From NCBI GenBank assembly GCA_947564495.1, contig CANOCD010000004.1:1-14595 (forward strand): DNA of 14,595 nt, given 5' to 3'. Position 1 is the first letter of the stretch, and every line of letters starts with the position of its first letter. Positions 1 through 14,287 of this stretch are shown here, piece after piece. A program made the translations under genes and the position numbers. The notes below the pieces were generated by a model. It was not told the origin of the DNA. It did no database searches and saw nothing but the letters and a program-made list of their open reading frames with translations. Source of the stretch: an uncultured Angelakisella sp. Its GTDB lineage: Bacteria > Bacillota > Clostridia > Oscillospirales > Ruminococcaceae.

Positions 1-116
1 CCCCGCCTGCGGGCGGGGATGAGCCCTTCGGGCAAGCGGCCTGCGGGCCGGGGGAAGGAACGGCTTCGGTGCCTCCGGCGGAGCCCTTCGGGCTATGGCC
101 TGCGGGCCGGGGTTGG
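1..116. repeat. GC-rich composite hairpin repeat, left copy
   Basis: This is a run of small palindromes: CCCCGCC/GGCGGGG (1-18), GCCC-TTC-GGGC (23-33), CGGCC/GGCCG (37-50), CTCC-GGC-GGAG (73-83), GCCC-TTC-GGGC again (83-93) and GGCC/GGCC (97-108). Three stretches recur in inverted orientation at the right end of the window. Bases 1-35 match 14589-14555 exactly, 57-82 match 14532-14507 with one mismatch, and 97-116 match 14499-14480 exactly. No protein-like frame is evident. It lies downstream of the leftward operon, so its hairpins could end or stabilise that transcript. It is most likely a dispersed noncoding repeat of this genome. Confidence 0.8.
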
Positions 117-157
117 ATGATGCCCGCCATATCCTTTTGCTACCGGTGTTGGAGGCT

Positions 158-1039
158 TTACTTCGTGCTTCCCCCGGCCTTCTTCGCCCCGTCTATGGCA
201 ATGAGCAGAATGCTGGCCAGCACCAACATCCCCCCGATCACCACCCCCGCCGTGACCGGATCGTGGAACCAGATCGTCCCGAATACCACGCTGACGATGG
301 GCTCCAGCATCGAAACAAAGGCCGCCATGGACGCTCCCATCCGCCCGATGCCGTACATCATCAGGAAGTACCCCCCCACCGTGCAGAGCCCCGACCCCAG
401 GACGTACATCCACCCGACGCCGCCGCCTGCGGGAACCGCCAGGGTTTGTGTCACCGGCGCCAAGATCCAGAACAGCACCGTCCCCGGCAGGGAAACGTAG
501 AACAGCTTGGTCTCGATGGGCAGTTCGTTGGCCGGGCCCTTTTCGTTGGCGATGAGATACCCCCCGTAGGTAAAGGCTGAGGCCAAGGCCAGCAGCAGCC
601 CCGTAGGATGCAGGTCCCCGCCCTTCCCCGCCAGGAACACCATCCCGGCGATGGAAGAGGCGATGGCCGCCCCCTGGAGCCTCGTGAACCCCTGGCGGAA
701 CACCGTCCCCATCACCACGCAGACCACCGTGGGGTAGAGGAAGTTGAGCATGATGGCCACCCCCACCGGCAGGTAGAGGTAGGCGTTGTTTAAGAGCAGG
801 GCGGTGACCAGCATCCCCACCGTGCCCATGAGCACCGCCTGGATGAACTGGACAGACCGGGCCCTCAGGCTCCGCTTTTTGGCCAGGGCCATCCCCAGGC
901 TGACCAGGGTGATGATGAGGTTGGTGTAGGCCATCAGGCTGTTCATGGGCAGGCCGTCCACCAGCACCTGCTTTTGCAGGCTGGGCATGATCCCCAGCAG
1001 GGTGGCCGCTCCGGCCACGGCGAAGATACCGACAAGCAT
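158..1039 (-). CDS. DMT/EamA-family transporter
   Basis: A 293-residue, very hydrophobic protein with about ten predicted membrane segments in two similar halves, the usual size and layout of drug/metabolite transporter (EamA) proteins. These are inner-membrane carriers, often exporters of amino acids or metabolites; the substrate cannot be read from sequence. The frame stays open upstream, but the ATG at 1039 is the likely start. It follows an AGAGAGGA ribosome site and begins directly with a membrane segment, while the upstream extension is Arg/Pro/Ser-rich and overlaps the ferredoxin gene. It is the last gene of the leftward cluster, 73 nt after the ferredoxin gene with a hairpin between. 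It may export a product of the upstream pathway, which is inference from position only. Confidence 0.85.
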   Translation of the reverse strand: MLVGIFAVAGAATLLGIMPSLQKQVLVDGLPMNSLMAYTNLIITLVSLGMALAKKRSLRARSVQFIQAVLMGTVGMLVTALLLNNAYLYLPVGVAIMLNFLYPTVVCVVMGTVFRQGFTRLQGAAIASSIAGMVFLAGKGGDLHPTGLLLALASAFTYGGYLIANEKGPANELPIETKLFYVSLPGTVLFWILAPVTQTLAVPAGGGVGWMYVLGSGLCTVGGYFLMMYGIGRMGASMAAFVSMLEPIVSVVFGTIWFHDPVTAGVVIGGMLVLASILLIAIDGAKKAGGSTK

Positions 1040-1066
1040 GGCAAAAGTTCCTCTCTTTCTTGGAAA

Positions 1067-1091
1067 GGGCCGGAGTGTTTTCCTCCGGCCC
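1067..1091 (-). terminator. stem-loop between ferredoxin and DMT genes
   Basis: A perfect 9-bp stem, GGGCCGGAG (1067-1075) with CTCCGGCCC (1083-1091), encloses a 7-nt loop. Read on the minus strand it is followed only by TTTCC, so it would be a weak intrinsic terminator or an attenuator or processing site. The 27 bases left before the DMT start are too few for a separate promoter, so the transporter probably depends on readthrough. Confidence 0.5.
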
Positions 1092-1112
1092 CTTGGTTTG
1101 TTTTGGATCGGT

Positions 1113-1625
1113 CTACTGCTCCAGCTGGGCCTCGGCCATCTGGCGGGCCTTCTTCTGCCGCTGGGCGGCCTGGCGCTCCCGGAGCTCCTCCTCGGTGAGG
1201 AGGGCAAGGGCCCCGGTGGGGCAGACCTTGACGCAGGCGGGAGTGAGCCCCGCCTTCTGCCTTTCGATGCAGGCGTCGCACTTCTGCATCTTGCCGTCCT
1301 CCCCGAAGCCCGGCACCCCGTAGGGGCAGGCCATGGCGCAGGAGTGGCAGCCGATGCAGTTCTGGGTGTCGTAGAGGGTGAAGCCGGTCTCCGGGTCCTT
1401 CACCAGGCACCCGCAGGGGCAGCCGATGACGCAGGGGGCGTCGATGCAGTGCATACAGGACACCGAGTAGAATCCCAGGGCCCCGGTCTTGTCCTCCAGG
1501 GTGAAGGTATGGCGGAAGGGCTGCTGGCCCTTCTGCACCGCCACGTCGTTCTGGTCGATGCAGGCCAGGGCGCAGGCGCCGCAGGCGGAGCACTTCTCCG
1601 GGTCGAAAAACAGGGTCTTTTTCAT
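1113..1625 (-). CDS. Four-cluster [4Fe-4S] ferredoxin, electron-transfer subunit of molybdoenzyme (DmsB/HycB-like)
   Basis: A 170-residue protein with sixteen cysteines arranged for four [4Fe-4S] clusters: C12/C15/C18/C22, C57/C60/C65/C69, C90/C93/C96/C100 and C116/C119/C131/C135. This is the layout of the small electron-transfer subunit of DMSO-reductase-family enzymes, which carries electrons to or from the Mo subunit. The tail after about residue 140 is charged and Gln/Arg-rich, probably helical, with no membrane anchor. The start at 1625 has a strong AGGAGG site located in the 3' end of the Mo gene, and the gap is only 3 nt, so the two are almost certainly co-translated. No Tat or Sec signal is seen, so the complex should be cytosolic. 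The family is clear; the partner assignment rests on adjacency. Confidence 0.93.
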   Translation of the reverse strand: MKKTLFFDPEKCSACGACALACIDQNDVAVQKGQQPFRHTFTLEDKTGALGFYSVSCMHCIDAPCVIGCPCGCLVKDPETGFTLYDTQNCIGCHSCAMACPYGVPGFGEDGKMQKCDACIERQKAGLTPACVKVCPTGALALLTEEELRERQAAQRQKKARQMAEAQLEQ

Positions 1626-1628
1626 GGT

Positions 1629-3770
1629 TCAGCCCTCCTTTCCCGCTTTGGTCACGGCGCACCGGGTGGACCGGTAGGCCGGGAAGCCGGAGTAGGGGTC
1701 CAGATGGTCCCCGTCCAGCAGGCTGTTGACGTCGGCCTCGGGGTAGCCGTGGTAGAGGTTCACCAGCCCCGGGGGCACGCTGCCGGTGGGATGGACCAGG
1801 ACGGTGACCCTCCCCCGAAGGGTGGAGATGACGATCCGGTCCCCCTCCTCCAGGCCCAGGCGGAGGCAGTCCTCCCGGTTCATGTCGGCGGCGGGCTTGG
1901 GACGGAGGCTCCGGTTGGCCGGCACCCCGTGGAGGCGGGAGTGGATGGCGTTGGGGATGCGGCTCCCCGAGGTGAGGGTGAAGGGGTACGCCTCCGGGTC
2001 GGCCCCGTCCAAGGGTTCCTTATAGGTGGGCAGGGCGTCCAGGCCCCACTCCGGGTGGTTTTCCATGATGGCGCTTTTCAGCTCGAACTTGCCGGTGGGG
2101 GTGGAAAGGCCCTTCTCCAGCTCCTGGTAGTCGGCGTGCTCCTCCTTGGGGGCGATGGGGATGGGGAGCTCCGCCTTTTTCAGCTGGTCGATGGTGACCC
2201 CCAGGTCGTCCAGGATGTAGGTCTGGACAAAGTGGTCGTACCCCTTTAGGAGCGTCTCGTCAGGGAGGTCCATATACCGGGCCAGCTCGGTGAGGATGTC
2301 GGTGTCGCTCTTGGCCTGGCCCAGGGGCGGGATGACCGGGGTGGTGTACCAGGCCGTTCCGTTGTGGTAGGGCTTGAACTCCCCCCGCTCAAAGCTGGTG
2401 CAGGCGGGGAGGACGATGTCGGCGTATTTGGCGGTGTCGGTGAGGAACAGGTCGGTGTCCACGAAGAAGTCCAGCGTCTCCAGGGCCCGGAACAGCTTGC
2501 CCGAGTCGGGGAACATCCGGCCGTTGAGGCCCAGGGCGAACACCGCCCGGAGGGGATAGGGGGTCCCTTCCAGGATCTGCCGGCTCATGTCCATGGCCTG
2601 CATCTCCCCCTCCAGGTAGTTCCACAGGGGGAACCGGGGGGCCCCCACCGGCTCCTTGGCGTCCTTGGGCCGGTTCTCGTAGAGGTATTCCTCCTCCCGG
2701 CTCTTAAAGCCGCAGGAGACGTGCATATAGCTGTGGGGGGTGAGGAGCTGTCCCCCGGCCCGGTCGAAGTTGCCGGTGATGGCCAGCAGGGACATCACCG
2801 CCCGGTAATTTTGCAGGCCGTTCCGGTGGTGGCAGAGGGGGGCGGAGGACTCGTTGCAGCTCACCCGGGGGTTCTGGTGGATGAGCCGGGCGGCGGCCTC
2901 CACCTGGGGGTAGGGGACGCCGGTGATGGCCTCGATGTTCGTTTCGTTGAAGCCCGCGGCGTAGGCGGCGTACTCGTCAAAGCCGTAGACGTACTTTTCG
3001 ATGTAGGGGCGGTCGATCCATCCCCGCTGGATGAGGACGTTGGCGATGGCCAGGGCCAGGGCCCCGTCGGTGCCGGTGCGGGGCTGGAGGAACAGGTCGG
3101 CCAGCTTTTCGCTGGCGGGGGTGCGCCGGGTATCCACGATGAGGAACTTGAGGCCCCGCTCCTTCAGCTCCATGGCCCGCTTGGCCCCCATGTAGGAGGA
3201 GTAGAAGGGGTTGAAGGCCCAGCCCAGGAACAGGTCGCTATGGTCCATGTCCGGGCTGCCCTGTTCCCCCGCCGCTACCTTCCAGGCCATGAAGGCCGCG
3301 GTGTAGCAGGCGCTGGATTCGCAGCCGTAGTTGGGGCTGCCGAAGGCGTAGGCGAACCGCCGGAGCATCTGGCGATACCACTTGGAATAGCCGGAGTAGA
3401 AGGCCACGCTCTCGGGGCCGTACTGCTCCTTGGCCTTATTGAGGCCCTGGGCGATGGCCTCATAGGCCTCCTCCCAGGTGATGGGCTCGAATTTCCCCTC
3501 CCCCCGCTTTCCCACACGACGCAGGGGGGTCCTCAGCCGATCCTCCCGGTAGAGGTACTGGCGGTTGGAAAGGCCCTTGGTGCAGAGTTTCCCGTCGTTG
3601 GAGGGGTGGCCGTCCAGCCCCTCGATCTTGATGACCTCCCCGTTCTTGACGTAGGCGGCGATGCCGCAGTGCATCCCCGGGGAGCAGATGTCGCAGAGGG
3701 TGCGGCGGACCTCGATGCCGGTGTCGGGACCGGGGATCTTGGCTTTCAGCTTGCGTTCCAGTTCTGTCAT
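1629..3770 (-). CDS. Molybdopterin-dependent oxidoreductase, DMSO-reductase family catalytic subunit
   Basis: A 713-residue protein with the usual order: an N-terminal [4Fe-4S] domain (about 22-75), the molybdopterin domain (about 78-500) and a C-terminal molydopterin-binding domain (about 590-705) ending in the family's SGFPAYRS-type motif. The cluster ligands are C26, C29, C35 and C63. The C-x2-C-x5-C spacing is wider than the common C-x2-C-x3-C. GSPN (144-147) is followed by C155, which aligns by eye with the Mo-ligating Cys of polysulfide-reductase-type enzymes (GSPN...TC), with C150 nearby as an alternative. There is no Tat twin-arginine leader, so it is cytosolic. The start overlaps the FAD gene by 4 nt (ATGA) and has a GGAGGGG site. 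The substrate is unknown: the fold fits reductases of S- or N-oxides, polysulfide or thiosulfate, formate dehydrogenases and acetylene-hydratase-like proteins. Confidence 0.93.
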   Translation of the reverse strand: MTELERKLKAKIPGPDTGIEVRRTLCDICSPGMHCGIAAYVKNGEVIKIEGLDGHPSNDGKLCTKGLSNRQYLYREDRLRTPLRRVGKRGEGKFEPITWEEAYEAIAQGLNKAKEQYGPESVAFYSGYSKWYRQMLRRFAYAFGSPNYGCESSACYTAAFMAWKVAAGEQGSPDMDHSDLFLGWAFNPFYSSYMGAKRAMELKERGLKFLIVDTRRTPASEKLADLFLQPRTGTDGALALAIANVLIQRGWIDRPYIEKYVYGFDEYAAYAAGFNETNIEAITGVPYPQVEAAARLIHQNPRVSCNESSAPLCHHRNGLQNYRAVMSLLAITGNFDRAGGQLLTPHSYMHVSCGFKSREEEYLYENRPKDAKEPVGAPRFPLWNYLEGEMQAMDMSRQILEGTPYPLRAVFALGLNGRMFPDSGKLFRALETLDFFVDTDLFLTDTAKYADIVLPACTSFERGEFKPYHNGTAWYTTPVIPPLGQAKSDTDILTELARYMDLPDETLLKGYDHFVQTYILDDLGVTIDQLKKAELPIPIAPKEEHADYQELEKGLSTPTGKFELKSAIMENHPEWGLDALPTYKEPLDGADPEAYPFTLTSGSRIPNAIHSRLHGVPANRSLRPKPAADMNREDCLRLGLEEGDRIVISTLRGRVTVLVHPTGSVPPGLVNLYHGYPEADVNSLLDGDHLDPYSGFPAYRSTRCAVTKAGKEG

Positions 3771-5047
3771 TTCTTCCCCTCCAGTGCTTCGATAAAGGCC
3801 GGTTCCAGGCCGCAGCGGATGAGCTGTCCCCGCTGTTCCGGGGAGAAGGGACCGGCCTGCCCCCGGAGCAGCTTGATGAGATGGGCCTTGAGGATGCCGG
3901 ACACCCTGTAGTTATCCAGGATGTTGAAGCCCGCCGCCCTGCCGTCCCGGAGCACCGCCTGGATGTAAAAGCCCTTGTCCGGGGACTGGTAGGTCCGGAC
4001 CTCCCCGGTGAGGCGGTTGTCCCCCAGGCCGATGAAATCCATGTCCAAAAAGTGGGTGATGTTGTGTAGGATGTTGCCGTCGGTCTCGGCGGAGCCCCCG
4101 GCCATGTTCCGCCCGGCCACCCGGCCCTGGGTGGCGGCGTTGGCCCAAAGGCCGATGATCATCTGGCCGCCGGACTGCATCTCCCGGCCCTGGCAGCAGT
4201 CCCCGGCGGCGTAGACCCCCGGGGCGGAGGTCTCCATCCTTTCGTTCACCAGGATGCCCCGGTCGGTCTGGACCTCCTTGGGGTCCAGGATCCCGGTGGC
4301 GGCCCGGGTGCCGATGTTCAGGACCAGCAATTCGGTTTTCAGCTCCCTGCCGTCGGCAAGGCGGACGGTGGTCTCCTTCACCTGGCCGTTCTCGTCCAGG
4401 GTCTCCTCCGCCCCGGTGATGGCCTGGCCGAAGGCCAGTTCGATGCCCAGCTTTCTAAGCCGGGCCTCGATCATCTCCGAGACCTCGGGGTAGGCGGCCA
4501 GGGCGAAGATGTGGGGGGCCATATCCGCCAGGGTGACCTGGCAGCCCCGCTTGTGGAGCAGCTCCGCCACCTTGATCCCCACCATGGAGGCCCCCACGAT
4601 GACGGCGTTTTGGTATTCCCGCTTTTCCAGGGCGTCGTGGAGGGCCACGGCGTCCTCCACCGTCCTCATGCAGAAGGCCCCCCGGAGGTGGGCGAAGCTC
4701 CCCGGGACAAAGGCGGTGGCGCCGGTGGCCACGAGGAGCTTGTCGTACTCCCGCCGGGTCCCGTCCGCGGTGGTCACCGCCCGGGCCTTGGCGTCCACCT
4801 TGGCCACCCGGGTCCCGGTGAGGAGCTCGGCCTCGTACTCCCGGGCGATCTCCGGCAGGGTCCCGAAGGGGAACAACCCCTCGTAGGGGAGGCGCCCGGC
4901 GGTGTAGTAGGTGGTGAGCATGGGGTTGTAGGGGGGCAGGGCGGTCTCGCTGTAAACATCCACCCGGGCGGAGCAGCCCGCCTCCCGGATGGCCCGGAGG
5001 CCGTGGTATCCGGCACAGCCGAAGCCGATGATGGCAAATCGTTCCAT
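3767..5047 (-). CDS. FAD-dependent NAD(P)H oxidoreductase (pyridine nucleotide-disulfide reductase fold)
   Basis: A 426-residue two-dinucleotide-fold flavoprotein. The FAD site is G8-x-G10-x-x-G13 near the N-terminus, ATGA lies at 107-110, the NAD(P) fold motif VGASMVG at 151-157, and the second FAD motif GVYAAGDCC at 277-285. It lacks the CxxC or CxxxxC redox pair of true disulfide reductases; the overall form is closer to rubredoxin- or nitrite-reductase-type NAD(P)H:acceptor oxidoreductases. A C-terminal region from about 310 resembles the small dimerisation-type domain. An AAAGGA site sits 8 nt before the ATG. It overlaps the Mo-subunit gene by 4 nt, so translation is probably coupled. 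Inferred role: pass NAD(P)H electrons through the ferredoxin subunit to the Mo enzyme, or the reverse. Confidence 0.88.
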   Translation of the reverse strand: MERFAIIGFGCAGYHGLRAIREAGCSARVDVYSETALPPYNPMLTTYYTAGRLPYEGLFPFGTLPEIAREYEAELLTGTRVAKVDAKARAVTTADGTRREYDKLLVATGATAFVPGSFAHLRGAFCMRTVEDAVALHDALEKREYQNAVIVGASMVGIKVAELLHKRGCQVTLADMAPHIFALAAYPEVSEMIEARLRKLGIELAFGQAITGAEETLDENGQVKETTVRLADGRELKTELLVLNIGTRAATGILDPKEVQTDRGILVNERMETSAPGVYAAGDCCQGREMQSGGQMIIGLWANAATQGRVAGRNMAGGSAETDGNILHNITHFLDMDFIGLGDNRLTGEVRTYQSPDKGFYIQAVLRDGRAAGFNILDNYRVSGILKAHLIKLLRGQAGPFSPEQRGQLIRCGLEPAFIEALEGKK

Positions 5048-5082
5048 CCCTTCCGTCCTTTCTTTGGTCGTGCTGAATGTGG

Positions 5083-5121
5083 GGAGCGCCGCCCACCGCT
5101 TGACCGGGTGAGCGGCGCTCC
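5083..5121 (-). terminator. strong stem-loop between permease and FAD genes
   Basis: A perfect 10-bp stem, GGAGCGCCGC (5083-5092) with GCGGCGCTCC (5112-5121), extends after one mismatch by CACC/GGTG. No T-tract follows on either strand, so it is not a canonical intrinsic terminator. It may separate or tune expression of the permease and redox genes, or act as an mRNA processing or stability element. Confidence 0.45.
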
Positions 5122-5145
5122 ATAGGCTGAAAAATGAGGGTAGGC

Positions 5146-6483
5146 TTACTTGCTCTCGACCTTGGCCCGCTTCTCCTGGACATACTTGGCCCGGAACTGG
5201 GTGTAGACGAACAGCACAGCGATGAAGATGACGCAGGCGATGGCGGCGGGAACGGTGAGGTCGGAGAGGTTGACGTAGGAGGTGAAAAGCATCAGGGCGC
5301 CGATGACCAGCAGGACAGCGTGGAGGGTGCTTTTCTTCATGTAGAAGTTGGACTTCTTGAACTCCTCGGGGAGGACGTCAGGGAGCTTCCAGCAGGCCAG
5401 GAGCACCATAAACTCGGAGAGCATATCGGTGCCCACGCCCATGTTGGAGATGAGGGTCAGGTCCATGCCGGTGACGATGGGCAGGGCGCCCATGACGAAG
5501 AACACCATGAGGAGGATGACGGGGGTGCCCGCCTTGTTCTCCTCGGCCAGCTTCTCGGGGAGCCAGCCGTCCCGGGCCGCCGCCTGGAGGCCCCGGTGGA
5601 CCCAGCTGAGGGTGCCGTTGAGGGTGGTGAGGAGGGCGAACATGGCGCCGCCGAACACGAAGAACAGGTAGAGCCAGGTGGGGAAGATGGTCCGGGCCAC
5701 CAGGGTCAGGTTCTCAAAGGCCACCTGCTCCACAGGGAGGACGCCGGCGGCCACGATGCCGATGAGGGCGTAGAACACGGCCACGATGGAGGTGGAAAGG
5801 ACGATGACCTTGGGGATGGTGGTGGCGGGCTTTTCGATGTCGTCGGCGTTTTCGGCGATGAACTTAGCGCCGCCGCAGGCGAAGGAGAGAAGGGCGATGC
5901 CGGTGAAGAAGTTCATGGGGCCGTTGGGCATGATGTTGTCGGCGGCCAGGCGCAGGGTGGACCAATCCACCTGGGGCAGGCCGAAGCCGATGAACAGGAA
6001 CAGGCTGATGAGCAGGAAGGCCACCATGCAGTTCTGGACCAGGGCGGTGGACTTGAGGCCCACGATGTTGATGCCGGTGCAGAGGATGAGGGCCACCAGG
6101 GCCACCACCGTCTCGCTGAAGCCGGGGAAGATGGCCACGAAGTAGCTGGCGAAGCCCTTGGCGAAGGTGGCGATGAGGACCTGGCTCAGGACGAACATCC
6201 CGATGTACATAAAGCTGGCCTTATCCCCCATGAGGCGCTTGATGTAGGTGTAGCCGGCGCCGGAGGCGGGGATGGACGAGGTGAGAATGATGTAGGGGAC
6301 GACGGTGACGATGGCCAGCAGGGCGCCGAAGATGAAGGCGTAGGGGGTGCCGTGGCCGGTGAGGCCGATGACGATGCCGGTGAGCACCATGATGCCGGAG
6401 CCGATGATCTGGCCGGTGGCCATGCCCATGCAGTCCATAAAGTTGAGTTTCTTACGCTGGGTGGTCTCGGGTTTTGTACTCAT
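5146..6483 (-). CDS. APC-superfamily amino-acid permease
   Basis: A 445-residue protein with about twelve membrane segments. The first carries GQIIGSGIM (about residues 24-32), the GSG-type substrate-binding break of TM1 in APC transporters. A later segment has FACGGAKFIAENADDIEKP, matching the conserved TM6 and following loop of amino-acid/polyamine permeases. It probably imports an amino acid or derivative; the exact substrate cannot be told. An ATG lies 33 nt upstream in frame, but the ATG at 6483 has an ideal AGGAGG site 6 nt ahead and gives the usual soluble N-terminal segment. It sits between the PLP-enzyme gene (78 nt away) and the FAD gene (98 nt away), all on the same strand, suggesting it feeds substrate to one or both. 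Confidence 0.92.
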   Translation of the reverse strand: MSTKPETTQRKKLNFMDCMGMATGQIIGSGIMVLTGIVIGLTGHGTPYAFIFGALLAIVTVVPYIILTSSIPASGAGYTYIKRLMGDKASFMYIGMFVLSQVLIATFAKGFASYFVAIFPGFSETVVALVALILCTGINIVGLKSTALVQNCMVAFLLISLFLFIGFGLPQVDWSTLRLAADNIMPNGPMNFFTGIALLSFACGGAKFIAENADDIEKPATTIPKVIVLSTSIVAVFYALIGIVAAGVLPVEQVAFENLTLVARTIFPTWLYLFFVFGGAMFALLTTLNGTLSWVHRGLQAAARDGWLPEKLAEENKAGTPVILLMVFFVMGALPIVTGMDLTLISNMGVGTDMLSEFMVLLACWKLPDVLPEEFKKSNFYMKKSTLHAVLLVIGALMLFTSYVNLSDLTVPAAIACVIFIAVLFVYTQFRAKYVQEKRAKVESK

Positions 6484-6515
6484 TATGATCCTCCTCAAAA
6501 ACTTTGTCAATATCA

Positions 6516-6537
6516 CAGGGCCTTTCCTGGGGCCCTG
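6516..6537 (-). other. stem-loop between PLP-enzyme and permease genes
   Basis: CAGGGCC (6516-6522) pairs with GGCCCTG (6531-6537) around an 8-nt loop, between the PLP-enzyme stop and the permease ribosome site. There is no T-tract after it on the minus strand. It could attenuate or stabilise the transcript; chance formation in GC-rich DNA cannot be excluded. Confidence 0.35.
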
Positions 6538-6561
6538 CCGCTTCCGTTTGCAGGGGGCCGC

Positions 6562-7731
6562 TTATTTCATATAGTCGGCGTAGAACTTAGCCAGCTGCTC
6601 CAGGCCCTTCCGGAGGGTCTCCCGGGCGCAGCCGATGTTCAGCCGCATGAAGCCCTCGGCCTGCTCCCCGTAGTGGCGGCCATCCCCCAGGGCGATGCCG
6701 TACTCCTTGGCCAGGATCTGGGTGATCTCCCCGCTGGTCTTGCCGAAGCAGGTCATATCCAGCCACATGAGGAAGGTCCCCTCGTGGGTGGTCACCTGGA
6801 CCTTGGGCATCCTCTCGGCGATGAACTCGGCCACCAGCTTGGCGTTCCCCGCCAGGTACTCGCACTGTTCGTCCATCCACTTGTCGCCGTTGTTGTAGGC
6901 GGCCTCCATAGCGGTGAAGGCCAGGTCGGAGGGGCCAAACATCCAGCGGCTGTCGTAGGCGTCCTGGATCCTCTGCTTCAGCTCCGGATTGGGGACGATC
7001 ATGCAGGAGGAGCCAAGGCCGGCCATGTTGAAGCTCTTGCTGATGGCGGTGTAGACCACCAGCTTCTGGTAGGTCTCGGGGAACTTGCCGGCGGTGGTGT
7101 AGGGGCGGGTAAGGCCGAAGTCGGCGTGGATCTCGTCGCTGAGGAGGTAGACGTCATACTTGACGCAGAGCTCCGCCAGCCGCCTCATCTCCTCGGCGGT
7201 CCAGACCCGGCCGATGGGGTTGTGGGGGTTGCAGAACACGATGGCCCGTACGCCGTCGGCCAGCTGCTTTTCCAGCAGCTCCCAGTTGATGGTGTAGTAG
7301 TTGTCCTTGTGGTCCAGGGGGCAGTCCACCATCTGGTGGCCGCTGTTGTTGACGGCGGCGAAGAAGGGGTCGTAGACGGGGGTAAAGACCAGGACCTTCT
7401 CCCCCTTGGGGACCACCACGTCCAGGGTGAAGAAGATGGCGGTGACCACGCCGTAGCTCAGGAGCATCCAGTCGGTCTGGGGCTTCCAGCCGTGGCGGCG
7501 GTCCCACCAGCCCTGGATGGCCTGGTAGACCGAGGGCAGGGGGTCGGAGTAGCCGATGATAGGGTGGTCGCACCGCTTCTGGAGAGCCTCCGTGATCTCC
7601 GGCACCGTGGCGAAATCGGTGTCGGCGATCCAGAAGGGCAGCAGGCCGCTCTGCTGGCCAAAGCTGTTCTGGAAGTTCCACTTGATGCTGGAGGTGCCCC
7701 GGCGGTCTACCACCTTGTCGAAATCATACAT
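6562..7731 (-). CDS. MalY/PatB-family PLP-dependent aminotransferase / C-S beta-lyase
   Basis: A 389-residue fold-type I PLP enzyme of normal family length. Visible motifs are WIADTDF (34-40, the W[IV]AD.DF motif of MalY/PatB), YGV (93-95), NPHNPIG (168-174), DEIH (199-202) and SKSFNMAGL (231-239), with K232 as the Schiff-base lysine. Family members cleave cystathionine, cysteine or S-conjugates to thiol or sulfide, pyruvate and ammonia, and some also transaminate. A cytosolic C-S lyase is the best guess, but transamination is possible. The ATG at 7731 has an AAAGGA site about 10 nt upstream. It is the first gene of the leftward run, preceded by a good promoter, with the amino-acid permease next. 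The physiological substrate is unknown. Confidence 0.9.
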   Translation of the reverse strand: MYDFDKVVDRRGTSSIKWNFQNSFGQQSGLLPFWIADTDFATVPEITEALQKRCDHPIIGYSDPLPSVYQAIQGWWDRRHGWKPQTDWMLLSYGVVTAIFFTLDVVVPKGEKVLVFTPVYDPFFAAVNNSGHQMVDCPLDHKDNYYTINWELLEKQLADGVRAIVFCNPHNPIGRVWTAEEMRRLAELCVKYDVYLLSDEIHADFGLTRPYTTAGKFPETYQKLVVYTAISKSFNMAGLGSSCMIVPNPELKQRIQDAYDSRWMFGPSDLAFTAMEAAYNNGDKWMDEQCEYLAGNAKLVAEFIAERMPKVQVTTHEGTFLMWLDMTCFGKTSGEITQILAKEYGIALGDGRHYGEQAEGFMRLNIGCARETLRKGLEQLAKFYADYMK

Positions 7732-8015
7732 GGCGAACTTTTCCTTTCTTGCTTGATCTCAGCCGCTGGAGGGGGCCGGCAAGGCGCCTGTTATGGTTTT
7801 TGCCGCCGCCCTTCTCTATCCTGTAATGAATTATAGCATGATATAATATGTTCCGCAATAGTCTATTCATAATTTCCGTGTTACTCGCTAAAATTTATCA
7901 TATTATACAAAGAACTATGTAGGTATTTGTGCATACAGACAAGATTTTCACAAGTCCTATCCTTTATACACGGCAAAACCATAACAGAACAGGGCAGGAA
8001 AGGGAGGCCCCGGGC
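7732..8015. other. AT-rich intergenic region without a gene
   Basis: This gap separates two same-strand genes. Besides the promoter, it contains a 9-bp inverted repeat, TATAATATG (7842-7850) and CATATTATA (7899-7907), 48 bases apart and flanking the promoter's upstream side. The leader has an 8-bp palindrome AGGCGCCT (7782-7789). The stretch from about 7820 to 7980 is far more AT-rich than its surroundings. I see no T-box, tRNA or riboswitch signature and no convincing small gene. Confidence 0.6.
7830..7858 (-). promoter_or_regulatory. Promoter for the leftward operon
   Basis: On the minus strand, TGCTATAAT is an extended -10 (TATAAT at 7830-7835), with TTGCGG (7853-7858) 17 bp upstream as a weak -35. 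Transcription would start near 7823 and leave about 92 nt of leader before the PLP-enzyme start. A second TATAAT on the same strand at 7902-7907 lacks a recognisable -35. Confidence 0.6.
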
Positions 8016-8046
8016 AAAAAAAGACCCCGCCGGGGCGGGCGGGGCC
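8016..8046 (-). terminator. Intrinsic terminator of the DUF554 gene
   Basis: On the minus strand the stem GGCCCCGCC (8038-8046) pairs with GGCGGGGTC (8023-8031, one G-T pair) around a 6-nt loop and runs straight into seven T's (8016-8022). It begins 18 nt after the DUF554 stop codon and is a textbook rho-independent terminator. Confidence 0.92.
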
Positions 8047-8063
8047 TTTGGGGCGGGGAAAAG

Positions 8064-8750
8064 TCAGATGCCGAAGAGGGAGAGAAGGGCGATGGCCGCC
8101 GGGGGGATCAGGAGGGCGGGGAGGAGGTTGAGGGTCTTGATCTCCTTGATGCCCAGGATGCCCAGGCCGGAGGCCAGGATGAGGATGCCCCCCACCAGGC
8201 TGATCTCGGTCATCAGGGCGTCGGTGATAAAGGGCTGGATAAGCCCGGCCAGGAGGTAGATGGTCCCCTGCCAGCAGAACAGCACCCCCGCGGCGGCGGC
8301 GATGCCCAAGCCGAAGGTGGAGGACAGGACCACCGAGGTGATGCCGTCCAGGATGGCGTTGGTAAAGAGGTAGGTGTGGTCCCCCATGAGGGCGCTCTGC
8401 ATGGGCCCCAGGATGGAGAGGGTCCCGGCGCAGAAAAGGAGGATGGCGGTGGAGAGCCCCCGGGCCAGATCGGACCCCTTGGAGAACCGGGCCACCACTC
8501 GGTCAAAGAGGGTGTCCAGGGAGAGCCGGGTGCCGATGAGCCCGCCCAGGGCCAGGCTGACGATGAAAAGGACGTGGTACCGGGAATCGGGCATGGCCCC
8601 CACGATGGAGTTGACCCCCAGGGCGGTGGCGGCCAGGCCCATGGAGTCCATCATCACGGTCTTGTATTTTTCCCCGATGCCCTTTTTCAGCGTGCTGCCC
8701 AGGATGCTGCCGGCCAGAATGGCGCCGGCGTTGGCGATAGTCCCGATCAT
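8064..8750 (-). CDS. DUF554-family integral membrane protein (YdfK/YqgA-like)
   Basis: A 228-residue hydrophobic protein beginning with the family's typical MIGTIANAGAILAGSILG glycine-rich first helix and having about six or seven membrane segments. Length and N-terminus fit DUF554 proteins, which are widespread in Firmicutes and enterobacteria; a transport role has been suggested but no function is settled. An AAGGAG ribosome site precedes the ATG at 8750 by about 9 nt. It appears to be a single-gene transcript, with its own promoter at 8801-8830 and a strong terminator right after the stop. It is divergent from the carboxypeptidase gene and does not seem to belong to either operon. Confidence 0.9.
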   Translation of the reverse strand: MIGTIANAGAILAGSILGSTLKKGIGEKYKTVMMDSMGLAATALGVNSIVGAMPDSRYHVLFIVSLALGGLIGTRLSLDTLFDRVVARFSKGSDLARGLSTAILLFCAGTLSILGPMQSALMGDHTYLFTNAILDGITSVVLSSTFGLGIAAAAGVLFCWQGTIYLLAGLIQPFITDALMTEISLVGGILILASGLGILGIKEIKTLNLLPALLIPPAAIALLSLFGI

Positions 8751-8800
8751 GTGTGGTCGCTCCTTCTTTTTTTGTTGGGGGTGATCCCTTATCTTATCCT

Positions 8801-8830
8801 ATCATATAACAAGTTGCGGGAAAAAGTCAA
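8801..8830 (-). promoter_or_regulatory. Promoter for the DUF554 gene
   Basis: On the minus strand, TTGACT (8825-8830) and TATGAT (8801-8806) are separated by 18 bp, a good vegetative sigma-A-type match with five of six bases in each hexamer. The leader would be about 45 nt. Confidence 0.65.
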
Positions 8831-8889
8831 GGGGGAGACGGCGTTTTCCCCGGGGGCGTTCCCCAGGGATTCCCACCCCCCTCCCGCCA

Positions 8890-8895
8890 TATAAT
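8890..8895 (+). promoter_or_regulatory. Possible -10 element for the carboxypeptidase gene
   Basis: TATAAT lies in an AT-rich patch 38 nt before the ATG, but the sequence 16-18 bp upstream has no recognisable TTGACA-like -35. It could be a weak vegetative promoter or one for an alternative sigma factor. It divergently faces the DUF554 promoter. Confidence 0.4.
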
Positions 8896-8932
8896 AAAAA
8901 CAAGACACCAAACCAGAAAAGAGGCGGAACCT

Positions 8933-10090
8933 ATGAAACTCCCCCGGCGGCAGCTCACCCTTGCCCTCCTGGCGATCCCCCTTTTCCTGGCCCTGGGCCT
9001 TGCCCCCGCCCAGGCCCAGTGCCTGGTCACCGGCGAAGACTATACCGTGGGGGCCAAGGCCGCCGTGGTCATGGAGGCCCAGACCGGGGAGCTCCTCTTC
9101 GCCCAGGAGCCCCGCAAAAGGCTCCCCATGGCAAGCACCACCAAGATCATGACCGCCCTTCTTGCCCTGGAACAGCCCGGCCTGGACGAGGAGTTTATCG
9201 TGGACCCCGACGCCATCCGGGTGGAGGGTTCCTCCATGGGCCTCCGGGAGGGGGACACCGTCACCCTCCGGGCCCTGGCCGGGGGGATGCTTGCCGCCAG
9301 CGGCAACGACGCCGCCGGGGCCGCCGCCGTCCGCATCGCCGGGAGCAAGGATGCCTTTGTGGAGAGGATGAACCAGCGGGCCGCCGATCTGGGCCTTGCC
9401 GATACTCACTTTGTCACCCCCTCCGGCCTGGACGCCGAGGGCCACTACTCCACCGCCTACGACATGGCCCTCCTGGGCCGGGCCGCCCTGCAAAACCCGG
9501 AGTTCGCCCGGATGGCGGGGGAAAAACGCCTCTCCCTTGCCTTCGGCAGTCCCCCCTATCAGCGGAGCCTCCTGAACCACAACCGCCTCCTCTCCCTCTA
9601 CCCCGACACCATCGGCATCAAGACCGGCTTCACCAAGACCGCCGGGCGGTGCCTGGTCTCCGCCGCCCGGCGGGACGGGGTGACCCTCATCGTCGTCACC
9701 CTGGGGTGCGGGGACGACTGGAACACCCACATCGCCCTTTATGAGCGGTACTTCCCCAAGGTCAGCCTCCGGGAGGCCCGCCCCCAGGGGGAGATCCTCC
9801 TCCCTGTCACCGGTGGGGACCGGGCCTCGGTGCCCCTTGTCCCCACCGAATTTCCCGGCCTGCCCCAGGTGGAGGGACGGGAGCTTTTGGTATCCCAGAA
9901 AATTTTTGCCCCGAATTTTGCCTACGCCCCCCTAAAAGGTGGTGACATTGTCGGCAAGATAGTATATTATAGGGATGGAGAGCCGGTGGCCCAAAGCCCC
10001 CTGGCTGTGGGGGAGCCGGTAGACGCCCTCCCCCCGGAAGTTCCAAAGACGATCTGGGAGAAGATCAGAGACATCCTGGGCGGCCCCTGA
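8933..10090 (+). CDS. D-alanyl-D-alanine carboxypeptidase (PBP5/DacA-DacF family)
   Basis: A 385-residue exported protein. The N-terminus has KLPRR followed by a hydrophobic stretch and APAQAQ, a signal peptide probably cut near residue 29. The serine peptidase (S11) motifs are all present: S68-T-T-K71 with nucleophile S68, S123-G-N125 and K230-T-G232. The rest (about 270-370) fits the C-terminal beta-rich PBP5 domain. A final segment with WEKI is amphipathic and could anchor weakly at the membrane. It trims the terminal D-Ala from peptidoglycan stem peptides outside the membrane. The start has a GAGGCGGA site. It heads the plus-strand gene set and is 42 nt from the RluB-like gene. In Bacillus, dacB lies close to rluB with spmA and spmB between, so a sporulation role is possible. 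Confidence 0.92.
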   Translation: MKLPRRQLTLALLAIPLFLALGLAPAQAQCLVTGEDYTVGAKAAVVMEAQTGELLFAQEPRKRLPMASTTKIMTALLALEQPGLDEEFIVDPDAIRVEGSSMGLREGDTVTLRALAGGMLAASGNDAAGAAAVRIAGSKDAFVERMNQRAADLGLADTHFVTPSGLDAEGHYSTAYDMALLGRAALQNPEFARMAGEKRLSLAFGSPPYQRSLLNHNRLLSLYPDTIGIKTGFTKTAGRCLVSAARRDGVTLIVVTLGCGDDWNTHIALYERYFPKVSLREARPQGEILLPVTGGDRASVPLVPTEFPGLPQVEGRELLVSQKIFAPNFAYAPLKGGDIVGKIVYYRDGEPVAQSPLAVGEPVDALPPEVPKTIWEKIRDILGGP

Positions 10091-10132
10091 TTCCAGGCGG
10101 CGCTCCGGGGGAAGAATAGAAAGGACAGGACC

Positions 10133-11128
10133 ATGCCAAAACCCATCCGCATCCAAAAGCTGCTCAGCGACAGCGGCATCCTTTCCCGGCGCAAGACCGA
10201 GGAGTACATCGCCGCCGGGCGGATCACCGTCAACGGACGAAAGGCCGAGCCCGGCCACCCGACCTACCCCACCGACGTCATCGCCATCGACGGGGTCCGG
10301 GTCCGGCTGGAAAAGAACAAGGAGAACCTTTACATCATGCTCAACAAGCCCCGGGGCTACGTCACCACCACCAGCGACGAGCGGGGCCGCCGGTGCGTCA
10401 CCCAGCTGGTGGAGGACCTGGACGCCCGGGTCTACCCCGTGGGGCGGCTGGACCGGGACAGCGAGGGACTGCTGCTGCTGACCAACGACGGGCAGTTCGC
10501 CAACCTCATCATGCACCCCAGCCACCACATCGGCAAGACCTACCGGGTCACCGTCCGCCCCGGCATCACCGAGGAACAGTGCGTGGCCCTTTCCACCGGG
10601 GTGGACATCGGCAAGGACGGGGAGGTGGAGATGACCGCCCCCGCCACCGTCCTGGTGCTGGAAAAGTACCCCGACCGGGCGGTGGTCCAGATCACCATCG
10701 CCCAGGGGAAGAACCGCCAGGTCCGCCGGATGTGCGAGGCCCTGGGATTGACAGTCGCCCGGCTCAAGCGCACCGCCATCGGGCCCCTGCGCCTGGGGAT
10801 GCTCCCCCCGGGGGAGTGGCGGGAGCTGAAGAAAAGCGAGCTCATCGCCCTGCGGAACTCCGGGGGCGGGGCCGCCGCCCAGGCCGCCCCGGAGCCCCCC
10901 CAGGCCCCGGGGAAGAAGAAGCCCTCCCGGAGCCAGGCCGCCCCCAAGGTCAAGCCCGGGCCCCGTCCCGCCAAGGGCAAGGCCCCCGCCGGAAAGCCCT
11001 CCGCCCCCAAAAAGCCGGGTCCCAAGCGGGCCCGGGAGGACGGCATGAGCCGGGACCGCTCCGGCGGCCTGCGGTTCCAGTCCCCGGACAAGCCCCGCCG
11101 GGGCGGGAAGGGAGGGGGCCGCCGGTGA
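10133..11128 (+). CDS. 23S rRNA pseudouridine synthase, RluB/RsuA family, with basic C-terminal tail
   Basis: A 331-residue RNA-modifying enzyme. An S4 RNA-binding domain (about 5-60) is followed by the RsuA/RluB catalytic domain. It contains LNKPRGYVTT (70-79), the active-site motif GRLDRDSEG (104-112) with catalytic D107, and GKNRQVRRM (192-200). It should isomerise uridine to pseudouridine in 23S rRNA; the exact site is inferred from the family. Residues 243-331 form a low-complexity tail rich in Lys, Pro, Ala, Gly and Arg, about 90 residues beyond the core, likely disordered and RNA-binding. An AAAGGA site precedes the ATG. The stop overlaps the next gene's GTG by 4 nt, implying coupled translation. 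Confidence 0.92.
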   Translation: MPKPIRIQKLLSDSGILSRRKTEEYIAAGRITVNGRKAEPGHPTYPTDVIAIDGVRVRLEKNKENLYIMLNKPRGYVTTTSDERGRRCVTQLVEDLDARVYPVGRLDRDSEGLLLLTNDGQFANLIMHPSHHIGKTYRVTVRPGITEEQCVALSTGVDIGKDGEVEMTAPATVLVLEKYPDRAVVQITIAQGKNRQVRRMCEALGLTVARLKRTAIGPLRLGMLPPGEWRELKKSELIALRNSGGGAAAQAAPEPPQAPGKKKPSRSQAAPKVKPGPRPAKGKAPAGKPSAPKKPGPKRAREDGMSRDRSGGLRFQSPDKPRRGGKGGGRR

Positions 11129-11484
11129 TCCAGATCCTGCCCATGGGGAAGGACCGGCTGGCCGCCCTCTGCCAAGAAAAGAACATCCGCCCGGGGGAGG
11201 CCCCCCTCCGGGGCTGCGTCGCCGCCGCCAGGGAGGAGACCCTGGGCTGGTGCCTGGCGGCGGAGGGGGAGCCCTGCCTTGTCCTGGGGCTGGAGGCGGA
11301 GGACCCCCATGTGGGGGACGGCCTTCTCCGGGCGGTGCTCTTTCCCCTTTACCAGGCGGGCCGGAAGGGCTACCGCTTCGCCTGTACCCCCGGGGGACCC
11401 CTCCCGGCGGGGTACGCCCTCCAGGGGGAGGGCTCTTTAGATGAACTATTCACCCCTTGTTCCGAAAGGAGAAAAGATCCATGA
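11125..11484 (+). CDS. Small unknown protein, possibly a minimal GNAT-like domain
   Basis: A 119-residue protein that I do not recognise with confidence. The frame overlaps the RluB stop (GTGA) and the PlsY start (ATGA) by 4 nt each, and a GGGAGGGGG ribosome site sits about 6 nt before GTG 11125, so it is very likely translated. An ATG at 11143 is an alternative start. Near residues 63-85 the pattern GDGLLRAVLFPLYQAGRKGYRF resembles the acetyl-CoA-binding strand-helix part of GNAT acetyltransferases, and a preceding LGWCLAA/CLVLGLE strand pair fits, but the protein is short for the fold. Neighbours act in RNA modification and phospholipid synthesis and do not fix a role. Confidence 0.7.
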   Translation: MIQILPMGKDRLAALCQEKNIRPGEAPLRGCVAAAREETLGWCLAAEGEPCLVLGLEAEDPHVGDGLLRAVLFPLYQAGRKGYRFACTPGGPLPAGYALQGEGSLDELFTPCSERRKDP

Positions 11485-12089
11485 ACCAGACCACGGGAAC
11501 CGCCCTGGCCATCCTGCTGGGGTATCTTCTGGGGAGCGTCAGCTTCTCCATCATCCTGAGCCGGTTAAAGTACCGGGACGACATCCGCCGCCACGGCAGC
11601 GGCAACGCCGGGATGACCAACACCCTGCGGACCTACGGCAAGCTCTCCGCCGTCATCGTCCTGGCGGGGGATTTCGGCAAGGGCTTTCTGGCGGCCTGGC
11701 TGGGCTGGCGGCTGGGGGGGACCCCCATGGCGGCCTACCTGGCGGGCCTGTTCGCCGTCATCGGCCATATGTTCCCCCTCTACTTCGGATTTCGGGGGGG
11801 CAAGGGGGTGGCCACCGCCGCCGGGGTCATCCTGGGGACCTGCGTCCCGGTGTTCCTCCTCCTGGCGGGCTGCTTTGTGGCCATCATCTTCTTCAGCCGG
11901 TACGTCTCCCTGGGCTCCATCTCGGTGGCGGCCATCTACCCCGTGGCCCTGGTCCTTCTGGGGGGCGGGCTCCAGCCTCCGCTCCTCTGCGCCCTGGGGA
12001 TGGCCGCCCTGGTCATCTGGGCCCACCGGAGCAACATCGGCCGCCTGCTGGCCGGCACCGAGAATAAACTTGGGCAGAAGAAAGCCTGA
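11481..12089 (+). CDS. plsY: Glycerol-3-phosphate acyltransferase PlsY
   Basis: A 202-residue integral membrane enzyme that transfers the acyl group of acyl-phosphate to glycerol-3-phosphate, making lysophosphatidic acid in the first step of phospholipid synthesis. The three PlsY motifs are present: GSGNAGMTN (39-47), GGKGVAT (106-112) and HRSNIGRLLAGTE (182-194). About five membrane segments match the family. The frame is open to a TTG 24 nt upstream, but ATG 11481 has an AAGGAG site 7 nt ahead and overlaps the preceding stop by 4 nt, so it is the better start. It is translationally coupled to the small upstream gene. The sugar kinase gene follows after 24 nt. Confidence 0.96.
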   Translation: MNQTTGTALAILLGYLLGSVSFSIILSRLKYRDDIRRHGSGNAGMTNTLRTYGKLSAVIVLAGDFGKGFLAAWLGWRLGGTPMAAYLAGLFAVIGHMFPLYFGFRGGKGVATAAGVILGTCVPVFLLLAGCFVAIIFFSRYVSLGSISVAAIYPVALVLLGGGLQPPLLCALGMAALVIWAHRSNIGRLLAGTENKLGQKKA

Positions 12090-12113
12090 CCCCGTCGAAA
12101 GGACGTGACCCCT

Positions 12114-13037
12114 ATGGCCGAAAAAAAGAAGGTCCTGCTCCTGGGCGGGCTGCTCATGGACCGCTACCTCCTTGCCGACCGCTACCCGGGCCGGGGGGAG
12201 GACGCCCTGGTCCGGGAGGAGCGCCGCCAGGCGGGGGGCTGTCCCCTCAACGCCGCCCGGGTCCTGGCCTCCTTAGGGGCGGAACCGGTCCTCTACTCCG
12301 CCCTGGGGGAGGACGAGATGGCCCGGGAACTCAGCGATACAGCGGACAGGCTCTCCCTCAGCCGGGAAGCCCTCTACCCCCTTCCCGGGGGAAAGACCGG
12401 CGCCTGCACCATCGTCCTGGACCGGGAGGGGGAGCGGACTTTCTTCACCTACCGGGGCTGCGAGGGCCACTTTGACCGGGCCCGCCTCTCCCCCGCTTTG
12501 GTGGAGGAGATCGCCGCCGTCTTTGTCACCGGCATCTACCTGGTCTACCCCGGCTGGTCGGAGGGAGCGGTGGACTTCCTGGAGGAGCTTTCCGCCAGGG
12601 GGGTCCCGATCCTCTTTGACCCCGGCTCCCTCGTCGGGGAGATGGACCCCGGCCTTCTCCGCCGTGTGGCGGAGGCTGCAACTATCCTCACCCCCAACGG
12701 CTGGGAACGCCGGGAGCTGGAGCGTATCCTCTCCATCCCCGACCTCCCCGCCTGGGCGGCGGAGCGGGGGGCCGCCTGCCTGGAGACCCGGGGGGCGGAG
12801 GGCTCGGTCCTTGCCACCTGGGAGGGGGAGCGGGCCATCCCCGCCTATCCCGCCAAGGTGGTGGACACCACCGGCGCCGGGGACAGCTTCGCCGGGGGCC
12901 TCCTGGCCGCCCTCCTGGCCGGGCAAAGCCTGGAGGAGGCCGCCAAGACCGCCAGCGCCTGCGGCTCCCTGGCGTCGGAGGTCCCGGGCATCCCCGGGGA
13001 CCTTGCCTGGGAGGCCGTCCGGGCCCGGATGGGGTGA
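12114..13037 (+). CDS. PfkB/ribokinase-family carbohydrate kinase
   Basis: A 307-residue cytosolic kinase of the PfkB family. It opens with a VLLLGGLLMDRY strand (7-18), has the AGGCPLNAARVLASLGA substrate-side motif (40-56) and ends with DTTGAGDSFAGGLLAALLAG (251-270), where D257 is the expected catalytic base and the GAG forms the anion hole. It should phosphorylate a sugar or nucleoside-like alcohol with ATP; the family has diverse substrates (ribose, fructose-1-phosphate, adenosine, 2-keto-3-deoxygluconate), and the sequence does not settle which. Of two possible starts, ATG 12114 is preferred because AAAGGA (12098-12103) is 10 nt ahead; the GTG at 12105 would be only 1 nt from it. It is probably in the same transcript as plsY. 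Confidence 0.9.
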   Translation: MAEKKKVLLLGGLLMDRYLLADRYPGRGEDALVREERRQAGGCPLNAARVLASLGAEPVLYSALGEDEMARELSDTADRLSLSREALYPLPGGKTGACTIVLDREGERTFFTYRGCEGHFDRARLSPALVEEIAAVFVTGIYLVYPGWSEGAVDFLEELSARGVPILFDPGSLVGEMDPGLLRRVAEAATILTPNGWERRELERILSIPDLPAWAAERGAACLETRGAEGSVLATWEGERAIPAYPAKVVDTTGAGDSFAGGLLAALLAGQSLEEAAKTASACGSLASEVPGIPGDLAWEAVRARMG

Positions 13038-13071
13038 AGCCGCCGCCCCGGATAAATCGTTATATGGCAAG

Positions 13072-13094
13072 AAAAACCGCCCTGTCCCGGGCGG
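13072..13094 (-). terminator. Minus-oriented terminator-like hairpin before the SEDS gene
   Basis: CCGCCC (13077-13082) pairs with GGGCGG (13089-13094) around a 6-nt loop. The T-run (five T's, 13072-13076) follows only when read on the minus strand; on the plus strand the hairpin is followed by GC and seven A's. It would therefore stop leftward, antisense transcription rather than the sense operon. Confidence 0.4.
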
Positions 13095-14285: not shown

Positions 14286-14287
14286 TA

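Follow-up and report, generated by a model that had tools for sequence, protein, structure and literature searches.

A PatB-type C–S lyase gene in a predicted conserved operon of Clostridia with genes for a putatively cytosolic, NAD(P)H-linked molybdoenzyme

Introduction

C–S lyase action on cysteine conjugates and the molybdenum (Mo)-dependent use of organic electron acceptors are usually studied apart, and in the predicted operon described here the two meet. The operon lies on 14,595 nucleotides of DNA from an uncultured Angelakisella sp. (assembly GCA_947564495.1, contig CANOCD010000004.1, positions 1 to 14,595); this whole stretch is called the window. The genes encode a PatB/MalY-type C–S lyase (PatB), an APC-superfamily permease, a flavin adenine dinucleotide (FAD)-type oxidoreductase, a Mo catalytic subunit, a four-cluster ferredoxin and an EamA transporter, and the FAD, Mo and ferredoxin proteins are referred to as the trio. 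With a rough probability of 0.43, we propose that a cysteine S-conjugate is taken up and split and that the trio, acting as a cytosolic Mo reductase supplied with NADH, disposes of electrons on oxidised sulfur of the substrate or product. No description of this gene set was found among the best-ranked papers of an open-access library (subscription papers were outside the scope).

Each part has described relatives. The PatB/MalY cysteine-S-conjugate beta-lyases (6qp3; 9k71, named 'cysteine-S-conjugate beta-lyase'; cystalysin, 1c7n) match the window's PatB over nearly the full length and share the context of the catalytic Lys, but the window's enzyme carries Thr38, Tyr354 and Gly367 and is encoded with a molybdoenzyme. 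Thiosulfate and polysulfide reductases of the PhsA/PsrA kind (2vpw) resemble the window system in superfamily, fold, aligned position of the Cys ligand and possession of a four-cluster partner. In contrast to them, the window system has no twin-arginine motif, no membrane anchor recognised by eye in the loci of its clade, and an NAD(P)H-type FAD partner instead. Formate dehydrogenases (FdhF, 7bkb, 9t1s) share total length and domain order with the Mo subunit. Acetylene hydratase Ahy (2e7z) has a Cys that aligns with Cys155 of that subunit, but the window's subunit has FAD and ferredoxin partners. The FAD and ferredoxin subunits of the aldehyde oxidoreductase complex 8c0z, and PadH-type FAD subunits, are homologous to those of the window, whereas the catalytic subunit of 8c0z was not among the best 60 of the 69 matches listed for the Mo subunit. 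Finally, the gut catechol dehydroxylases and urolithin-forming Mo enzymes (PMC12771579, PMC11574389) are likewise members of the dimethyl sulfoxide (DMSO) reductase superfamily from gut anaerobes and act on organic substrates. In the parts of these papers covered here, no C–S lyase partner is described for them, and they are compared with the window by description.

Organization of the gene cluster

A run of seven genes extends from 8750 to 158 on the minus strand, in this order:

8064-8750, minus strand: DUF554 membrane protein, a kept neighbour, probably with its own transcript (PF04474, 7.4e-66)
6562-7731, minus strand: PatB/MalY-type pyridoxal phosphate (PLP)-dependent C–S lyase, most likely the first operon gene (TIGR04350, 398.8 bits against a cut-off of 340)
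5146-6483, minus strand: APC-superfamily amino-acid permease, likely an importer (PF13520, 1.1e-40)
3767-5047, minus strand: FAD/NAD(P)H oxidoreductase of the ferredoxin-reductase type (PF07992, 2.2e-49)
1629-3770, minus strand: Mo-bis(pyranopterin guanine dinucleotide) (bis-PGD) catalytic subunit with an N-terminal 4Fe-4S site, predicted cytosolic (PF04879, PF00384, PF01568)
1113-1625, minus strand: four-cluster ferredoxin (DmsB-like), electron-transfer subunit (PF13247)
158-1051, minus strand: EamA (DMT) transporter, possibly a product exporter (PF00892, 9.6e-28)

An earlier note on this DNA had placed a six-gene cluster at 1113-7731. All of the genes it named are present on the minus strand, but that range holds five of them and the EamA gene lies outside. 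Its spacings were correct: the FAD and Mo genes overlap by 4 nt, the Mo and ferredoxin genes are 3 nt apart, and the two larger gaps lie at 5048-5145 and 6484-6561. The permease reached the cut-off of none of the 10 NCBIfam families listed.

Conservation of the PatB–Mo pair in the closest Mo clade

Homologues of the Mo subunit were searched for in the family (197 genomes, 8 matched at 1e-60), the order (394 genomes, 11 matched at 1e-150) and the class (391 genomes, 4 matched at 1e-150), the window's own genome being included in each count. On the contigs of named genomes at least 558 stretches were confirmed, and the best 80 loci were kept. The loci were probed with the window's proteins to score gene content. 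A tree of 67 Mo rows was built by a quick method with SH-aLRT support only; it omitted L067 (match too short), L022 and L023 (27-29%), short loci repeating longer ones, and L068-L103 except L071, L082, L087 and L102.

The window fell into one clade of 11 loci (SH-aLRT 96; the window, L017, L024-L029, L038, L119 and L120), with hosts labelled as Oscillospiraceae, Lachnospiraceae and Clostridiaceae. In 11/11 of these loci, patB was adjacent to the Mo cluster, upstream of it and colinear. The ferredoxin gene was present in 10 of the 11, the L029 contig stopping within the Mo gene, and the FAD gene was also present in 10, damaged in L025. An APC permease stood within the cluster in 7/11 loci (in two pieces in L027), and an EamA gene followed the ferredoxin gene in five (the window, L025 in two pieces, L026, L119 and L120). 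The exact six-gene set occurred in the window, L026, L119 and L120, and the FAD frame of L026 (Oscillospiraceae bacterium CE91-St43) was intact. In L017 a 29-residue C-terminal remnant of the FAD protein remains between PatB and Mo, so the short cluster there derives from a longer one. Of the six families whose co-occurrence the earlier note suggested checking, the PatB–Mo pair is thus kept throughout the clade and the full set in 4/11 loci, and the permease and FAD protein are less fixed than PatB, Mo and ferredoxin. A FAD–Mo fusion enzyme at L025:8708-12052 was considered and rejected: in the one long frame FAD has lost its C-terminus and Mo its N-terminus, and it is probably a deletion or an assembly chimera.

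A cluster-type PatB (E to 1e-120) was found in 3/377 genomes of the window's family, and it adjoined a Mo cluster in all three. The DUF554 gene also lay upstream of patB in L017, L026 and L120. We infer from the names of several relatives, such as merdavium and excrementipullorum, that the hosts are gut bacteria. The gene set is, as predicted from its linkage in these loci, a conserved operon of Clostridia.

Signals upstream of patB

Three candidate elements were located between the DUF554 gene and patB:

7830-7858, minus strand: candidate promoter, TTGCGG-17-TATAAT, roughly 100 bp ahead of patB (from aligning eight upstream regions)
7904-7933, no strand assigned: palindromic operator candidate TGCACAAA-N14-TTTGTGCA, above the promoter candidate, with 2 mismatches in the window
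8026-8039, minus strand: terminator-like hairpin with a T-run, between DUF554 and patB (sequence scan)

The -10 box TATAAT was present in the window, L017, L119, L120 and L026, with TATAAA in L024. The promoter candidate was not seen in L028 and L029 in the upstream alignment, and it was absent from the sites listed by a consensus scan. The palindrome matched once each in the window, L017, L119 and L120, at the same place relative to patB, where shuffles expect 0.01-0.12 matches for a pattern derived, as here, from the same four loci in which it was counted; L026 had no match at 3 mismatches. Because the promoter candidate and palindrome precede patB and the terminator-like hairpin follows DUF554, the predicted operon most likely begins with patB. 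In L119 a Crp/Fnr-family gene directly upstream is a candidate regulator, and regulators at other loci were of the GntR (L024, L025, L028), LysR (L027, L038) and YheO type (L029).

These data also bear on whether unrelated genes became neighbours by chance. The C–S lyase family is common (19/60 class genomes, 26 loci, E to 1e-90), and from this frequency we estimate a chance PatB neighbour within a few kb at well under 1% per locus. The pair was kept in every locus of the clade with its order, and the closest loci share the palindrome and promoter candidates, so chance is very unlikely for the PatB–Mo pair; DUF554 and the L043 pairing described below may still be chance neighbours. The functional tie to a C–S lyase suggested in the earlier note was supported by conservation across genera, by patB standing first behind the kept promoter and palindrome candidates, and by its repeated joining to the Mo family.

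The cluster PatB differs from other PatB enzymes

The window's PatB belongs to TIGR04350, and the cut-off of that family was also exceeded by the PatB proteins of L027, L028, L038, L043, L048 and L051. Its PLP-binding Lys is K231 in ISKSFNMAG, which in alignments falls on the SK motif of the solved lyases, and its best-matching solved relative is the PatB of 6qp3. From family knowledge, the cluster PatB would carry out beta-elimination of cysteine S-conjugates.

An ADMDF motif is changed to ADTDF (Thr38) in 11/11 cluster PatBs, and the same position was Met in 25/25 background PatBs, in the five solved relatives with displayed alignments, and in the PatBs of L043, L048 and L051. Position 354 was Tyr in all 11 cluster PatBs versus Phe in 22/25 of the background, and position 367 was Gly in all 11 versus Ala in 22/25, with Gly also in L048. 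From these substitutions we infer that the substrate pocket of the cluster PatB is altered. The window's own genome has a second PatB of another lineage, about 33% identical (L016:2611-3783, contig C131); no Mo gene was found on that 4.9 kb contig.

Identity of the Mo subunit

The Mo subunit is a member of the DMSO reductase (Mo/W-bis-PGD) superfamily, with its three Pfam domains (Fe4S4, molybdopterin and dinucleotide-binding) over the gathering score and fold matches throughout. Its predicted ligand is specified as follows:

3306-3308, minus strand: codon of Cys155, predicted Mo ligand (alignment with FdhF, 2e7z and 2vpw)

Cys155 aligned with selenocysteine (Sec) 140 of E. coli FdhF and with a Cys in each of 2e7z and 2vpw, and Cys was found in 65/65 aligned rows other than E. 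coli, the window included. In formate dehydrogenases the active site has a Sec/Cys-His pair and Arg333. The position of FdhF His141 is Tyr156 in the window's Mo subunit and is variable across the Mo family, and the segment that would hold Arg333 is missing. The best NCBIfam score was that of TIGR01591, 267.7 bits against a cut-off of 666.25, and with both residues missing, formate dehydrogenase was ruled out. No family reached its cut-off among the best 25 of the 26 NCBIfam families listed. The PhsA model NF012032 gave 245.6 bits (cut-off 694), and the models for DMSO, trimethylamine N-oxide and biotin sulfoxide reductases were also missed (TIGR02166, 209 versus 777.7 bits; TIGR00509, 133.3 versus 1017.55 bits). 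SoeA-type sulfite oxidation was considered since many of the 32-33% Mo relatives come from purple and other sulfur-oxidising bacteria. That idea was dropped, with no Soe-type subunits obvious by eye near the three loci inspected (L071, L087 and L091).

The Mo chain contains no twin-arginine motif, the Mo, FAD and ferredoxin chains contain no 19-residue segment above the hydropathy limit used, and no membrane anchor was recognised by eye in the loci of the 11-locus clade. Because of the missing motif and transmembrane-like segments, the complex is predicted to be cytosolic, in agreement with the earlier note, which had seen neither a Tat signal nor an anchor.

Acetylene hydratase was the top single-sequence and fold match of the Mo subunit. 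That enzyme has a Cys ligand, an active-site Asp and no external redox partner; because FAD and ferredoxin subunits accompany the window's Mo subunit, a redox reaction is expected of it. The match to an enzyme of C–O chemistry favours an alternative in which Mo acts on the carbon part of the conjugate. PatB, or in L121 a tryptophanase-type lyase, would free an aromatic or alkyl thiol or a phenol, and Mo would reductively remove or move a hydroxyl, as the gut catechol dehydroxylases do. Gut molybdoenzymes of the same superfamily do dehydroxylate phenols, as described in the parts of PMC12771579 and PMC11574389 covered here. In addition, L121:4423-14181 (genome G842) has in a row RidA, a tryptophanase/tyrosine phenol-lyase-type enzyme, FAD-Mo-ferredoxin, a Na+/H+ antiporter-family transporter and a UbiD-type decarboxylase. 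We regard this alternative as unlikely, however. No aromatic-pathway gene was recognised by eye among the displayed neighbours of the 11-locus clade, the Mo tree contains no tested dehydroxylase, and, according to the covered part of the review PMC11574389, Eggerthella and Gordonibacter are the only known sources of such dehydroxylases.

The FAD and ferredoxin subunits and the direction of electron flow

The FAD protein contains the motifs GFGCAG and VGASMVG...VTLAD and has Cys at 11, 25, 126, 169, 284, 285 and 412 only. CoA-disulfide reductases have an active-site Cys near residue 43; with no Cys between 25 and 126, and a score of 133.9 versus 578.8 bits, a coenzyme A-disulfide or persulfide reductase was rejected. 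No family reached its cut-off among the best 25 of the 47 NCBIfam families listed for the FAD protein, nor among the best 25 of the 31 listed for the ferredoxin. The latter has 18 Cys including four 4Fe-4S motifs and scored 117.3 bits on the DmsB-type model TIGR02951 (cut-off 214.1). Judged by these profiles, the trio proteins are members of known superfamilies without a family name, and the soluble chain of FAD, four [4Fe-4S] clusters and Mo suggested in the earlier note is supported by sequence.

The trio might also run in reverse, with Mo oxidising a product (a thiol, a sulfite-like anion or an aldehyde) and NAD+ being reduced via ferredoxin and FAD. Both the FAD protein and the ferredoxin match subunits of the solved aldehyde oxidoreductase complex 8c0z, and the top named model of the FAD protein, although below its cut-off, is that of the NADH-dependent phenylglyoxylate dehydrogenase PadH. 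The catalytic subunit, by contrast, belongs to the DMSO reductase superfamily and not to that of the aldehyde oxidoreductases, it misses both tested formate-oxidation residues, and fermenters growing on a source of pyruvate would need an electron sink rather than extra NADH. Reverse flow is therefore quite improbable in our view.

PatB–Mo pairing beyond the clade

Among 52 Mo-family rows, FAD lay within 3 kb in 38, ferredoxin within 3 kb in 47, and PatB within 4.5 kb in 14, where rows with a contig end close by were scored as lacking PatB. Both trees require three changes to explain the pairing. The Mo tree joins L043 with L048 as sisters (SH-aLRT 88) and places L051 at a distance. In the PatB tree (39 rows) the 11 cluster PatBs form one clade (UFBoot 100, SH-aLRT 99), with L043 and L051 firmly outside it and L048 at a fork without a clear side. 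L051 has a tight run of PatB-APC-FAD-Mo-ferredoxin with a separate PatB lineage. L048 has a tight run of amino-acid ABC genes, PatB, Mo and ferredoxin, with 1 nt between the called PatB and Mo frames. As an independent pairing L043 is weak, because its PatB stands in a PatB/gamma-lyase pair of a kind present at 6/25 other PatB loci. At these 25 loci no Mo, FAD, ferredoxin or APC gene was found, within flanks of only about 1.5 kb, which also miss the FAD and Mo genes of the window's own PatB. With L121, we read these cases as one Mo family repeatedly paired with beta-eliminating lyases.

Molybdenum cofactor supply

MoCF_biosynth genes lie at most about 10 kb from the cluster in G171 and G1003. 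In L017 a gene for a solute-binding protein, read as molybdate-binding, is near the cluster, and in L025 a molybdenum cofactor (Moco) riboswitch (RF01055, 64.5 bits) is followed by genes identified by eye as cofactor genes. The window's contig ends before any such region, and six MoCF_biosynth matches were counted in its genome as a whole.

This adjacency could mean that PatB is only a helper, releasing sulfide or clearing cysteine for Moco or Fe-S supply or for detoxification, with a trio substrate unrelated to PatB; the trio relatives that have no PatB nearby outside the clade (38/41) are in line with this. Moco sulfur, however, is normally supplied by cysteine desulfurases. Moreover, patB stands first behind a kept promoter candidate, has partnered with the Mo family in at least two lineages, and has a clade-specific change in an otherwise invariant motif, and we consider a helper role decidedly improbable.

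Proposed mechanism

In the proposed use of oxidised sulfur as an electron sink, import of a cysteine S-conjugate would fall to the APC permease or, in some relatives, to a different transporter. PatB would split the C–S bond by PLP-dependent beta-elimination to give 2-aminoacrylate and a sulfur leaving group, and 2-aminoacrylate would yield pyruvate and ammonia, spontaneously or with RidA. Electrons from NADH would reach the soluble Mo subunit by way of the FAD protein and then the four-cluster ferredoxin, a path that, like the elimination, we take from family knowledge. Mo would reduce oxidised sulfur either in the conjugate before it is cleaved (e.g. an S-oxide) or, once cleavage has taken place, in the leaving group (e.g. 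a persulfide-type S–S bond), and EamA may export the product. Two electrons would be released when pyruvate is oxidised to acetate and two taken up in the sulfur reduction, which could allow a single compound to serve as electron acceptor as well as source of carbon and nitrogen. The candidates we favour are dietary S-alk(en)yl-cysteine sulfoxides or disulfides of the cystine type; S-sulfocysteine is less favoured because the reduction of thiosulfate by NADH is unfavourable. What was observed is the gene content and linkage, the shared upstream signals, the cofactor genes adjacent in relatives and the exclusion of formate dehydrogenase; the direction of electrons, sulfur as the reduced atom and the identity of the substrate are the parts that we propose.

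Several observations weigh against this proposal. Known S-oxide reductases have Ser as Mo ligand, unlike the Cys of the window's subunit. In the fold ranking, where absence of a family from the list does not exclude that family, acetylene hydratase, formate dehydrogenases and arsenate and nitrate reductases score at least as well as 2vpw, and the fold match gives no preference for sulfur chemistry. L017 has lost FAD and APC while keeping PatB-Mo-ferredoxin, and no FAD gene is nearby in L048. MoCF_biosynth was found in 7/7 genomes tested, including G029 and G140, which gave no Mo match in the family search, so only its adjacency is telling. RidA, present near PatB at 2/25 other PatB loci, is not special to the cluster.

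The wider Mo family points the same way. PatB was nearby in only 3/41 family rows outside the clade. The gamma-lyase context of L043 counts here as well, as do its neighbours of the octopine dehydrogenase, MmgE/PrpD and arylmalonate decarboxylase families. Some other trios outside the clade have genes of the MmgE/PrpD, octopine dehydrogenase or corrinoid type as neighbours (mostly named by eye). Because PatB is so often missing and the company differs, sulfur is not a general theme of the Mo family, and the trio is a general module of which PatB marks one branch. The earlier note had stated that trio homologues routinely found without the permease and PLP genes would refute its reading; this is half the case, PatB being mostly missing outside the clade and never within it.

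It is doubtful, though conceivable, that the locus encodes a new enzyme system, namely a cytosolic NADH-fed molybdoenzyme for oxidised cysteine S-conjugates (S-oxides, S–S adducts) with a dedicated C–S lyase, so that one compound would provide pyruvate, ammonia and its own acceptor. It would then carry out a Stickland-like fermentation of a single molecule, with thiols or sulfide set free in the gut. If the main proposal of an electron sink is right, the operon would supply genes for the conversion of cysteine conjugates to thiols or sulfide, and for electron disposal without a membrane chain, in Clostridia that by name are mostly from the gut, and an ADTDF-type PatB beside Mo would be a genomic marker for this route. 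Should the substrate have been guessed wrongly, the conserved operon still opens an uncharacterised Mo/FAD/ferredoxin family to functional tests, since the known chemistry of a partner enzyme narrows the class of substrate.

Other branches of the Mo family and flanking genes

One trio branch (L030, L031, L039, L040, L126 and L127) occurs with MmgE/PrpD-like, octopine dehydrogenase-like, ornithine cyclodeaminase-like and Asp/Glu racemase-like genes (by-eye names) and probably applies the same module to a different substrate. The sister clade of the PatB clade has 10 tree rows (L018, L020, L032, L033, L035, L036, L037, L041, L054 and L057) with Mo, mostly FAD and ferredoxin, and no nearby PatB; a small membrane protein follows in some. 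At L034:12770-22109, from a C. difficile strain, Mo-ferredoxin is followed by ABC transporter and corrinoid methyltransferase-type genes that by eye resemble a type 1 mlp cluster. A corrinoid methyltransferase link was dropped, as these genes were not seen in the near relative L122 and resemble the mlp clusters described in the covered part of PMC10418091. At L079:1759-7206, in a gammaproteobacterial metagenome-assembled genome, a PatB-like gene and a 32% Mo homologue are divergently oriented with about 2.2 kb between them, which may be chance. On the opposite strand of the window, 8933-14253 (plus strand) encodes a D-Ala-D-Ala carboxypeptidase, an S4-domain pseudouridine synthase, PlsY, a PfkB-family kinase and a RodA/FtsW-family protein.

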